Source: Prochlorococcus sp. AG-363-B04 (GTDB lineage: Bacteria; Cyanobacteriota; Cyanobacteriia; PCC-6307; Cyanobiaceae). From it: DNA of 64,000 nt. The translations under genes were made by a program, and so were the position numbers. How positions within the stretch are numbered: the first letter of the stretch is position 1; each line of letters starts with the position of its first letter. The stretch covers positions 1 through 64,000 of the forward strand of contig QCFC01000008.1 of the NCBI GenBank assembly GCA_003278465.1, written 5' to 3'. The notes below the pieces were generated by a model, which worked only from the letters and a program-made list of their open reading frames with translations, searched no databases and was not told where the DNA came from. This document shows positions 4,459 through 7,604 of this stretch, piece after piece.

Positions 4459-5943
4459 TTACTTGAATTGAAGAGATAATTTTAAAATCCAATTAACTAG
4501 TGTTCTAACTCCGTATCCAGTTGCTCCTGCAGGATTAAGACCTTTATCTTTTTCGGTCCATACAGTACCTGCAATATCTATATGAGCCCAAGAGATTGAT
4601 TCTTCGACAAATTCTTTGAGAAATAGTGCTGCAGTAATTGATCCTCCTGCCCTTGGACCAGTATTTTTTATATCTGCAAGTAATGATTTGAGTCCTTCTT
4701 TATAGGAATCTTGAAGTGGCATCCTCCAAATACCTTCCCCTGCATCAGCAGCAGCAGTTGTTAAATCGTCAGCAAGCTGATCATCTTCAGTCCATAGGCC
4801 TGCTATTTCTTCTCCAAGTGCTATTACGCAAGCGCCAGTAAGAGTGGCAAGATCAACGATTTTATCTGGCTTTAGTTCACATGCGTAAACCAAAGCATCT
4901 GCAAGTGTTAGCCGCCCTTCTGCATCCGTGTTATTGATTTCTATGGTTTTTCCATTAGATGCCTTGACAATGTCTCCGGGATGTACGGCTGATCCATTGA
5001 TCATGTTTTCACAAGCAGCAATGATGAAATGAATTTCGATCCCTGCTGGTTTAAGTTCAGCAATGGCCCTTGCTGTGCCAAGAACTGCTGCACTGCCTCC
5101 CATGTCAAATTTCATCATGTCAATTTGCGCTGCGCCTACTTTTAAGTTGTATCCCCCAGAATCGAAGGTGAGACCTTTCCCTATGAGTGCAAGACGTTGT
5201 TTAACTGCTCCTTTTGGTTTGTACACAAGATGAATGAATCTTGGTGCTAGGTCTGATCCTTGGCTTACAGCAAGAAATGCACCCATACCTTTCTCGGCAC
5301 ATTCAGATTTATCAAGAATTTTCACTTCAAGTGAATGATTTTCGGCTATTTTCTTAGCCTGATTGGCAAGTTCATTTGGGGTGAGGAAATTTGGGGGAGC
5401 ACCTACCAGCTCTCTTGCTAACTCGACCCCTTCACAAGTTGGGTGAACTTCTTGGAGAATTTGGTTAGTTGATTCTGGAAAATTTATAAGTTCAACGTTT
5501 TCTGGAAAAATTGAGGGTTCCGGAGTTTTGCGAAATCGAAGATCTTTGAAACGTGATAGTCGTAATGCTTCTGCAACGGCCTTAACAGCTGCATTCGAAT
5601 CAAAGCATTCCCAAGGAAAGTCAATTCCTAAAACTCCATTATTCCCAAGAGTTTCTTTCGTTACGGCTGAGGTCGCTTTCCTAAGTTCATTGAGCACAAG
5701 ATTGTTTGATTCCCCAAGCCCAATTAGTATGAGCTTTTTGAAAGGGCCATGGAATAGTTGAAAGCTTAGGATCTCTCCAGATTTTGCATTGAAAGCCTTG
5801 TTTTTGAGGCTTTCTGATAAAGATTCTCCAATACGTCTTTCTAGTTGATTTAGTTTCTGCTCTAAGGCTCCTTCTATTAGACCAATAATTAATGAAGTGC
5901 CTTCCCAACTCTGCAAGGTATCAGTAGTAGTTGAGACTTTCAT
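4459..5943 (-). CDS. pepA: Leucyl aminopeptidase (cytosol aminopeptidase, M17 family)
   Basis: PepA removes N-terminal residues, preferably Leu, from peptides. It works as a hexamer with two metal ions per subunit. The 494-residue protein has the poorly conserved N-terminal domain and then the M17 catalytic domain. GKGLTFDSGGYNLK carries metal and catalytic lysine positions, and the signature NTDAEGRL lies in the middle of the C-terminal half. Length and motifs are normal. The gene is followed by the small convergent unknown gene. Upstream, 39 bp away, is the GIY-YIG-like gene on the same strand. Some PepA proteins also bind DNA, but nothing in this sequence shows that. Confidence 0.96.
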   Translation of the reverse strand: MKVSTTTDTLQSWEGTSLIIGLIEGALEQKLNQLERRIGESLSESLKNKAFNAKSGEILSFQLFHGPFKKLILIGLGESNNLVLNELRKATSAVTKETLGNNGVLGIDFPWECFDSNAAVKAVAEALRLSRFKDLRFRKTPEPSIFPENVELINFPESTNQILQEVHPTCEGVELARELVGAPPNFLTPNELANQAKKIAENHSLEVKILDKSECAEKGMGAFLAVSQGSDLAPRFIHLVYKPKGAVKQRLALIGKGLTFDSGGYNLKVGAAQIDMMKFDMGGSAAVLGTARAIAELKPAGIEIHFIIAACENMINGSAVHPGDIVKASNGKTIEINNTDAEGRLTLADALVYACELKPDKIVDLATLTGACVIALGEEIAGLWTEDDQLADDLTTAAADAGEGIWRMPLQDSYKEGLKSLLADIKNTGPRAGGSITAALFLKEFVEESISWAHIDIAGTVWTEKDKGLNPAGATGYGVRTLVNWILKLSLQFK

Positions 5944-5982: not shown

Positions 5983-6579
5983 TTAGATAATTTCATTTGT
6001 AAAAGGAGTATTCCAGCGAGTTCTTGTTTCTTTGTTAAAAGGCGGAAGCCAGCGTTGGATGAGTGCCTGTTCTAATTCCCTTCTGGCTTTTGTCTCACAG
6101 GGTACGTCTGTCCAGAACCGAATACTTAGCTGTTTATTAAGACCAACGTTTGCTAGTGCATCGGAATAAGAAGATAAATATGCTTTACAGTCGTGATTTC
6201 CTTTCCATCTTCTTTCTGCAGCTACAGTTTCTCCTATATAAAGTAATAAAGGATTTATTAGAATTTTAGGTTTATCCATTACTAGGTAAATTGCTGGCCC
6301 CTTATGAGGCATAGAGGGTAAGCGCCAAAAGCTAAGAGGGAGAGGCTTCAATTTCAGAGGATCAAATTGATTTTGTACAGCAGAGTAATTTGTATTGAAA
6401 AATGTACTTTGTTTTATTAAATCAGGTTCATTTCCAAAGAGGTTTGCCTGGAATTCATGAAGGCGAAATTGCCAGTTCAGTAATACTTTTCTACTGATTT
6501 TGAATTCTCTAGGGGGAGTTTTACCATTTTGTAAAACATTGGTATCAAATAATTGCCCTTGAGACCCTGAAGTTTTCAT
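5983..6579 (-). CDS. GIY-YIG nuclease-like protein
   Basis: The C-terminal half resembles a GIY-YIG fold. AIYLVMDKPKILINPLLLYIGE fits the paired motif with GxY replaced by IYL and YIG kept as LLYIGET. A conserved Arg follows in ERRWKGNH, and a Glu lies in RRELEQALIQRWLPPFNKE. The N-terminal 80 residues are unassigned. I chose the ATG at 6579, 7 bp after the upstream gene. An upstream start would overlap that gene by 56 bp. Its coupling to a helix-hairpin-helix protein suggests a DNA-processing or repair role. Catalytic activity is not established. Confidence 0.72.
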   Translation of the reverse strand: MKTSGSQGQLFDTNVLQNGKTPPREFKISRKVLLNWQFRLHEFQANLFGNEPDLIKQSTFFNTNYSAVQNQFDPLKLKPLPLSFWRLPSMPHKGPAIYLVMDKPKILINPLLLYIGETVAAERRWKGNHDCKAYLSSYSDALANVGLNKQLSIRFWTDVPCETKARRELEQALIQRWLPPFNKETRTRWNTPFTNEII

Positions 6580-6586
6580 GGTTTCA

Positions 6587-7201
6587 TCAAGCCGGAGGAA
6601 GTATTGGTCCTGATCGTTTTGCACCGAAGCGAACATTGCCAATTAAGTTTTCAATAGCAGATGCAGGTAGTGTTAACCTCTCTTGAAGGTCAGCCAGGTT
6701 TTTAAAGGGAAGTCTCTGACGTTCTTTGAAAAATCTATCAAGACGCTCCTTAGGCCATTTTAGAGTGGTTTTAATCATTTCAGGAGTGGCTGAATTCAAG
6801 TCAATTAATTGGATTGGCGGTAGAACAGGCTTATTTCCATACCATTGAAAGATGAGATGAGGGCTCCATTCCCTAGAGAGATTAGAAGGCAATTCTAATA
6901 ATTGAAAAAGATCATCAGGCCCACTAAGTTGAACCCCACCTCGTTGCAGTCGGATTAGTAGTTCAACCATTTCATCAGTGCAACCTGGTAATTTTTTCCA
7001 GTCGTTGGCATTGGCTCTATTGACATCTACAAAGTAGTTGACTTTGGTTTCTTGTAATTTCCTTTGAAGTCCTCTGAACTCTTTTTCAATTAATTCAAAC
7101 TTGTGTGATCTGTTTGTATGTTTTTTGATTTTAGCTGGTAGCTGACCAGTTACTTTGAGGATTTGTCGAGCTAGAGGGTCTAACCAGTGCCCCCGGACCA
7201 T
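6587..7201 (-). CDS. Tandem helix-hairpin-helix (ComEA-like) domain protein
   Basis: Two regions look like ComEA-type helix-hairpin-helix elements. The first begins VDVNRANANDWKKLPGC near residue 60. The second begins LIDLNSATPEMIKTTLKWP near residue 135. Both have the Asn/Ala-x-x-x-x-L-pattern of non-specific DNA-binding HhH modules. The N-terminal 50 residues are basic. There is no signal peptide or membrane anchor, so it is not a classical ComEA competence receptor. It is the first gene of a two-gene unit with the GIY-YIG-like protein, which suggests joint action on DNA. The ATG at 7201 gives 204 aa. Confidence 0.72.
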   Translation of the reverse strand: MVRGHWLDPLARQILKVTGQLPAKIKKHTNRSHKFELIEKEFRGLQRKLQETKVNYFVDVNRANANDWKKLPGCTDEMVELLIRLQRGGVQLSGPDDLFQLLELPSNLSREWSPHLIFQWYGNKPVLPPIQLIDLNSATPEMIKTTLKWPKERLDRFFKERQRLPFKNLADLQERLTLPASAIENLIGNVRFGAKRSGPILPPA

Positions 7202-7337: not shown

Positions 7338-7604
7338 TTAATTAAATATATTGTCTGGCTTACAGCAGGCAAATATAGGCTTGTTTTTCTCGGCCTCACC
7401 AAATTTGTTGAATTCAGTGCCAATTTGATGGCAAATGACTTGGTTATTATTTAAGCGAGCCATGAATTGATCTATTGCTTTTTTTTGATGAACTTCTTTG
7501 GCTCCATACTTGATCTGACATATTTGAACATTAGCCAAGAGATTAATTGGGATCAGGAGGGAGGAAAAACCTGTTATTAGATTTGAAATTGATGAAATAT
7601 TCAT
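7338..7604 (-). CDS. Small exported protein of unknown function
   Basis: The 88-residue product starts with a hydrophobic stretch ending LLIPINLLANVQ, which looks like a signal peptide cut near residue 25. The mature part of about 63 residues has four Cys, including a CC pair near the end, so disulfides are possible outside the cytoplasm. I recognise no family. It stands alone between the HhH gene and the asparagine-synthetase-like gene, with more than 100 bp of AT-rich DNA on each side. It is a plausible gene because of the signal-like start, but support is modest. Confidence 0.5.
   Translation of the reverse strand: MNISSISNLITGFSSLLIPINLLANVQICQIKYGAKEVHQKKAIDQFMARLNNNQVICHQIGTEFNKFGEAEKNKPIFACCKPDNIFN

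Follow-up and report, generated by a model that had tools for sequence, protein, structure and literature searches.

The segment from 5983 to 7201 of the window, i.e. of the whole stretch of 64,000 nucleotides that was analysed, is filled by two genes on the minus strand according to the list of open reading frames and the translations of the window. One of them (6587..7201, minus strand) encodes a tandem helix-hairpin-helix (HhH), ComEA-like protein of 204 aa, the other (5983..6579, minus strand) a GIY-YIG protein of 198 aa. They are separated by a gap of 7 bp (6580-6586), as stated in a preliminary description of this DNA. For the GIY-YIG protein, the ATG at 6579 was taken as the best start, where the start region and a QxxLF motif align in relatives. 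The TTG at 6642, the mechanical start of the open reading frame, has no support from the alignment and was rejected.

The source genome assembly has a size of 1.5 Mb and is 78% complete. Five confirmed matches were obtained in the named genome collection, all of them in Prochlorococcus single-cell genomes and with 50-56% identity. For the comparisons described below, 201 genomes of the picocyanobacterial family of the source genome (referred to as the family) were sampled, 130 of which are near-complete (completeness of 90% or more, contamination of 5% or less). An aminopeptidase gene, presumably pepA, is located on the same strand 39 bp downstream of the GIY-YIG gene (4459..5943, minus strand) and is mentioned as a neighbour only, with no functional claim. 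At nearly all family loci (45 of 46), and at none of the 17 loci outside the family, a pepA-like gene lies in this orientation 31-103 bp downstream of the GIY-YIG gene. Between the HhH gene and a gene that we take to be asparagine-synthase-like, an open reading frame of 88 aa is present on the minus strand (7338-7604), the N-terminus of which appears hydrophobic by eye.

Identity of the GIY-YIG domain

The GIY-YIG catalytic domain comprises aa 97-182 (6034..6291, minus strand). PF01541 matches aa 97-176 with 22.8 bits as compared to a gathering score of 22.6 bits (E 1.2e-4), which is a narrow pass, and is the sole Pfam match on the 198-aa protein at E <= 1; the C-terminal half of UvrC-type proteins is absent. 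Within a set of 23 aligned sequences including the query, 18 match PF01541 at E <= 0.1 (best E 5.8e-6). A profile-profile comparison with the GIY-YIG domain of UvrC-type proteins resulted in an E value of 7.5e-6 and a probability of 84% over 80 columns, which bears out the GIY-YIG-like domain of the preliminary description. NCBIfam gave no match for the protein, and searching the PDB sequences with the GIY profile returned nothing meaningful (best E 0.64). As the AlphaFold2 models are poor (pLDDT 42 and 62), the fold assignment rests on sequence profiles.

In GIY-YIG domains, conserved Tyr, Arg, Glu and Asn residues have catalytic roles. All 61 aligned rows agree in the columns of Tyr98, Tyr114, Arg124, Glu170 and Asn182, which line up with the Tyr, Tyr, Arg, Glu and Asn that are conserved in the UvrC-type domain. 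His129, Cys131, Trp177 and Trp189 are likewise invariant. These rows were chosen by score and length, with the query present twice, and provide an unselected test of the catalytic columns. In the same alignment the second box reads YIG or YVG and the first one (A/C)(I/L/V)Y. The preliminary description had considered both boxes altered and the activity possibly different from that of repair enzymes such as UvrC. The first view does not hold in the alignment, and a different activity is not supported because the catalytic columns are intact. Judged by these conserved positions, the protein is probably an active nuclease. That it might instead be a catalytically dead scaffold, as could be argued from the weak Pfam score and from the additional invariant His, Cys and Trp residues, to which no role is assigned, is very unlikely given the invariance of the five UvrC-aligned catalytic positions in all 61 rows.

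From its sequence features the protein is best placed as a member of the GIY-YIG superfamily distinct from UvrC, Cho, Slx1 and MSH1. With UvrC and Cho it shares the superfamily and the aligned Tyr, Tyr, Arg, Glu and Asn residues. However, it lacks the C-terminal half of UvrC and possesses a clamp-type tail as well as the invariant His and Cys residues. A UvrC paralogue or a split UvrC was considered and rejected, since a protein of the size of UvrC is encoded elsewhere: each of the 12 genomes tested has, in addition to the 198-aa protein, one of 630-706 aa, which we take to be UvrC and which gives the stronger GIY-YIG match of the two.

Repeated clamp-type peptides in the N-terminal tail

The first ~70 residues of the GIY-YIG protein are variable apart from short conserved islands. 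This tail harbours three QxxLF-type motifs: motif 1, a predicted sliding-clamp-binding peptide (QGQLF, aa 7-11, 6547..6561, minus strand), motif 2, which is confined to the family (QANLF, aa 44-48, 6436..6450, minus strand), and motif 3, which is common to the family and to outside relatives (QSTFF, aa 57-61, 6397..6411, minus strand). Their conservation was counted in 80 sequences including that of the window, which had been picked by a pattern requiring Y.GE, RW and HDC, only positions outside this pattern being independent. With four divergent rows counted as family, the set consists of 60 family and 20 outside sequences, as in the tree.

In motif 1, Q7 and L10 are present in 80 of 80 and F11 in 73 of 80 sequences, and all 80 have an in-frame start ahead of the motif. 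Its second residue is mostly G in the family (46 of 60 rows) and mostly L outside it (16 of 20 rows), where the motif reads QLSLF (7/20), QLNLF (3), QLKLF (2), QLDLF (1) or otherwise. Q44 of motif 2 is invariant in all 80 sequences, and L47 and F48 occur at frequencies of 0.79 and 0.95 in 56 family rows; the motif is absent from the four most divergent family rows and from the outside rows. For motif 3, Q57 was counted in 75, L60 in 66 and F61 in 63 of the 80 sequences. The tails contain 2.59 QxxLF-like peptides on average, as compared to 0.29 in shuffled tails, and at least two such peptides are present in 72 of 80 tails versus 3.05% of the shuffles. Of the 68 ATG-started frames of at least 90 aa in the window, none except the GIY-YIG frame contains two QxxL(F/L) peptides within the N-terminal 75 residues.

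The published clamp-binding consensus is QL(S/D)LF (PMC9690074, available in part), and a QL(S/D)LF-like peptide, the sequence criterion for a client of the sliding clamp, is found in the tail. The clamp motif reading is well supported by these comparisons, and the protein is predicted to be a client of the clamp (DnaN), which we regard as probable. The nuclease tail with repeated clamp-type motifs is new here; the preliminary description had missed both the motifs (aa 7-11, 44-48 and 57-61) and the loss of MutL described below. Among the open-licence papers listed, none was found to connect a GIY-YIG protein of cyanobacteria to the clamp or to MutS, as judged from titles and the first parts of the abstracts.

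The four divergent rows of the 80-sequence set read QFELF in the first motif, as do L073 and L074. The latter belong to a small-genome clade (L073-L076; genomes G116, G017, G066 and G094) with a very long nuclease branch of 1.48.

Retention of the nuclease and of MutS in genomes lacking MutL

The nuclease is encoded in 188 of the 201 family genomes, including 130 of the 130 near-complete ones. MutS domain I was detected in 180 family genomes and 129 of the 130 near-complete ones. No MutL match (TIGR00585) above the cut-off was found in any of the 201 family genomes; 28 of them gave weak matches of at most 28.2 bits, presumably to other ATPases. Likewise, in a sample of the phylum, MutL_C matched none of the 13 family genomes and, among the matches listed, 75 of the 76 other Cyanobacteriia, four unlisted genomes without MutL being assigned to other classes by list order. 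According to the available text of PMC5101192, several P. marinus strains lack mutL, and none of the cyanobacteria in that study has mutH.

Outside the family, a strong nuclease match is present in 29 of the 76 Cyanobacteriia, with three of the genes short or split (G254, G264 and G359); 15 further genomes with weak matches (E 9e-8 to 9e-4) were left uncounted. In 26 of the outside genomes sampled, MutL is accompanied by a full-length nuclease gene, and 46 of the 76 encode MutL but gave no strong match to the nuclease. Genome G280 encodes the nuclease and MutL with MutS not detected, and G251 encodes MutS but neither MutL nor the nuclease. In the nuclease tree, a branch with 100/100 support separates the 60 family sequences from the others. 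No gene link between the nuclease and mutS was seen. The loss of MutL in the family is one evolutionary event, and the association between the nuclease and the absence of MutL thus rests on a single lineage.

Homologues were also found on 33 plasmid records, mostly of Nostoc. Six of these stretches were read (L226-L231, Nostoc and Tolypothrix plasmids) and share no constant neighbour. On NZ_CP046707, a second gene annotated as GIY-YIG is located near the nuclease homologue. The coexistence with MutL outside the family and the plasmid copies imply that the original role of the nuclease may have been a different one.

Clamp-type peptides of MutS

MutS is a known clamp client (PMC8744996, available in part). 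In the family its N-terminal tail is long and carries a clamp-type peptide near its start (L216-L224, L186-L215). All nine full-length family MutS proteins contain QGSLF, QGNLF or QKNLF near the start and are intact by motif (GDFFE, TGPNASGKS). In the N-tails of the best-scoring 30 of 180 family MutS proteins, 17 contain QxxLF, 12 only QQL(S/A)(L/F) and one only EQLAL. As two genomes are common to both sets, QxxLF is found in 24 of 37 family genomes overall, and in 21 of these as QG(S/N)LF. All 39 sequences have an in-frame start ahead of the peptide; in several family MutS proteins an upstream ATG precedes the motif by seven or eight residues, much like in the nuclease. The distance from the FxE mismatch motif back to the preceding stop is 90-165 residues in the family versus 39-117 outside.

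In the best 30 of 78 MutS N-tails from outside the family (four of them being from other classes of the phylum), QxxLF was found in none, and nine hold looser matches, e.g. QALLL. A clamp-type C-terminal peptide is present in 10 of 15 full-length outside MutS proteins (QLDIF in six of them) and is lacking in the nine full-length family proteins. Judging from these sequences, the clamp motif of MutS has moved from the C-terminus to the N-terminus in the family. A gain of the motif by family MutS was rejected in view of the C-terminal peptide of the outside proteins. The second residue of the QxxLF motifs shifts from mostly L to mostly G in the family, in MutS and nuclease alike. We regard these parallel changes as a built-in positive control when the nuclease tail is interpreted as clamp-binding.

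The HhH protein and its pairing with the nuclease

The window HhH protein itself stays below the Pfam gathering score (21 vs 27 bits), but HHH_3 matches 10 of 11 aligned HhH sequences including the query (best E 4.5e-16), and the HhH profile matches ComEA (8dss) with E 3.4e-4. The tandem ComEA-like architecture of the preliminary description was therefore correct. The first HhH unit comprises aa about 59-118 (6848..7027, minus strand), profile positions 55-120 aligning with ComEA 8dss; the second comprises aa 131-191 (6629..6811, minus strand), with an HHH_3 match below the gathering score. A Foldseek search with the AlphaFold2 model, which is weak, found nothing at E <= 0.001 (ComEA 8dss at E 2.1). 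The HhH units are shared with ComEA; unlike ComEA, the window protein has no evident export signal, as no hydrophobic N-terminal stretch was seen in its translation by eye, and no competence gene was noticed among the neighbours of the pair.

In the family, the HhH protein was found in 130 of 201 genomes and in 98 of the 130 near-complete ones by a survey with a single protein query, which a divergent HhH protein could escape. The remaining 32 near-complete genomes keep the nuclease without an HhH match, and the absence was confirmed by profile in the seven of them that were tested. Gene positions were compared for 120 of the 130 HhH-positive and 150 of the 188 nuclease-positive genomes among the matches listed (G008, G062, G090, G113, G132, G148, G163, G175, G187 and G198 being left out). 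The two genes are adjacent in 104 of 104 compared family genomes with both, with gaps of 5-384 bp. The other 16 HhH-positive genomes have no nuclease row among the matches listed, and 46 of the 150 nuclease rows have no HhH match. Outside the family, most genomes gave a strong HhH match, both those that encode the nuclease (27 of 29) and those that do not (15 of 20; 61 genomes were profiled in all), and by coordinate comparison the two genes are close in only one of 28 genomes with both (G236, 0.7 kb apart).

The preliminary description had suggested that the two proteins act together. This fits the tight linkage in those family genomes that have both, but not the family genomes without HhH or the separation outside. 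As the HhH protein is often absent in the family and rarely near the nuclease elsewhere, the pair is a family-level arrangement and not a general two-component enzyme, which leaves the nuclease as the conserved core. The HhH protein would be secondary, perhaps an optional DNA-binding helper. An obligate two-part structure-specific nuclease, comparable to a split UvrC or the SLX1-SLX4 pair, could account for the strict adjacency in the 104 genomes and for the proximity in G236. Such an enzyme is nevertheless distinctly unlikely, with the nuclease kept alone in 32 near-complete genomes, with HhH proteins common outside the family irrespective of the nuclease and rarely nearby, and with the better GIY-YIG match of the separate protein taken as UvrC. 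It was dropped as the main explanation after the HhH absences and the separation outside the family had been found.

A possible role in mismatch repair

From the domain with its catalytic residues, the conservation of the motifs and the distribution of the genes, which can be read directly from the sequences, we infer clamp binding, nuclease activity, cooperation with MutS, strand choice and a contribution of the HhH protein as elements of the following scheme. The nuclease would be tethered to the sliding clamp DnaN through two or three QxxLF peptides of its tail. MutS, carrying the same kind of clamp peptide, would find a mispair on newly replicated DNA, and the clamp-held nuclease would nick the nascent strand near the clamp, the orientation of which would give the strand choice. 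Helicase, exonuclease, polymerase and ligase would then finish the repair, and the neighbouring HhH protein could serve as an optional DNA-binding helper. With MutS on the same clamp and MutL missing, a mismatch-repair nickase is the simplest single proposal for the nuclease. We thus tentatively favour the view that the GIY-YIG nuclease, tethered to the clamp, takes part in replication-coupled repair and most likely stands in for MutL by making the nick for MutS, although our confidence stays below even. DNA repair, also named in the preliminary description, appears to have been the right theme.

The part of this proposal that concerns mismatches is possible rather than probable and has counter-examples. 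A clamp motif indicates coupling to replication and does not specify mismatches, 13 of the 30 family MutS N-tails have only QL(S/A)L-type peptides, i.e. a weaker clamp match, and G251 and G280 do not fit a pattern of MutL replacement. HL Prochlorococcus also lacks recJ and xseAB (PMC2921402, available in part), so that a complete pathway is not evident. In 2010 the same source left the function of MutS in HL Prochlorococcus mismatch repair undecided, because MutL and MutH are missing. In favour of the proposal, knocking out mutS in S. elongatus PCC 7942 led to an about 10-fold higher mutation rate, whereas mutL, which was knocked out as well, is missing from the five strains for which an increase is reported; the available text gives no mutL value (PMC9985602). 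This contrast bears on the nuclease only if PCC 7942 carries its gene.

It is also conceivable, if doubtful, that the clamp-tethered nuclease acts independently of MutS in other replication-coupled repair, e.g. of lesions, crosslinks, flaps or stalled forks. Clamp motifs are generic, genomes outside the family have the gene alongside MutL, G280 has the nuclease without a detected MutS, and plasmid copies exist, all of which would agree with such a function. It leaves unexplained, however, why the gene is retained in all 130 near-complete genomes without MutL and is patchy elsewhere, with three copies short or split; this contrast weighs little because it stems from a single lineage. It is unlikely that the protein derives from a mobile or plasmid-maintenance nuclease and, having been domesticated in the family, now has a role other than repair. 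The 33 plasmid records, the patchy occurrence with short or split copies outside the family and a weak match of 2 of 23 relatives to a PHROG homing endonuclease family (matches in a few relatives, best E 0.007) would suit this origin, and clamp binding is also known from transposases (PMC4549789, available in part). Against it stand the lack of a constant neighbour in the six plasmid stretches read and the constant position next to pepA, which follows the gene at 45 of the 46 family loci. Moreover, PADLOC returned no family for the GIY-YIG and HhH proteins at E <= 1, none of 18 viral-contig stretches that fitted the pattern was confirmed, and the phage records contained no match. With these results, the weak PHROG matches and no constant neighbour on the six plasmids, a defence role, which had been raised in the preliminary description, was rejected.

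If the favoured role as a nickase for MutS holds, MutL-free repair by MutS and the GIY-YIG nuclease would explain a normal mutation rate without MutL. The six surface-ocean bacteria that serve as comparison possess MutS and MutL. The mutation rate of Prochlorococcus HLII, 3.50e-10, is close to theirs (PMC10837832, available in part). The conserved clamp-tagged nuclease makes the question of MutS in Prochlorococcus directly testable, and this in very abundant photosynthetic cells.

Relation to known repair systems

EndoMS/NucS has a fold different from that of GIY-YIG proteins. It is a non-canonical mismatch repair endonuclease aided by the sliding clamp (PMC8228993, available in part) and in this respect resembles the nuclease proposed here, but MutS is absent from that system and kept in the picocyanobacterial family. 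Plant MSH1, a fusion of MutS to a GIY-YIG domain, likewise combines a mismatch sensor with a GIY-YIG nuclease and is proposed to act by an atypical mechanism (PMC12292046, available in part), whereas MutS and GIY-YIG are separate polypeptides in the family. The same source connects the loss of mutL in green plants and glaucophytes, perhaps, with the gain of nuclease or accessory domains on MutS. MutS-fused GIY-YIG domains fall into the Slx1 group, which lacks the C-terminal Asn and is characterized by a RING finger or a MutS fusion (PMC1564403, available in part); in contrast, Asn182 is invariant and the window protein carries no fusion. MutL-free repair by MutS and a stand-alone GIY-YIG nickase, both docked to the clamp via an N-terminal QGxLF peptide and convergent with plant MSH1, is a more specific version of the proposal and rather unlikely as a whole. 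If true, it would add a MutL-independent form of mismatch repair beside EndoMS/NucS and plant MSH1.

A clamp-associated incision after recognition by MutS, as proposed here, is also the principle of the bacterial MutL endonuclease in repair without MutH. MutL, however, combines a GHKL ATPase with its own nuclease domain, to which the GIY-YIG domain is unrelated, and it is above the cut-off in none of the 201 family genomes. In cyanobacteria outside the family, the best-scoring 30 of 48 MutL proteins were inspected by eye. The strict D(Q/M)HA form was found in 0 of 30, and together with a low domain score this had raised the suspicion that cyanobacterial MutL is devoid of the endonuclease motif. 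The suspicion was dismissed, since all 30 contain CPHGRP as well as the endonuclease motif in the form EQH(I/V)(A/V)(H/Q)ER. Among the matches listed, the MutL_C match covers about 120 residues with about 52-73 bits in photosynthetic cyanobacteria, and mostly 133-140 residues with 100-129 bits in other classes of the phylum.
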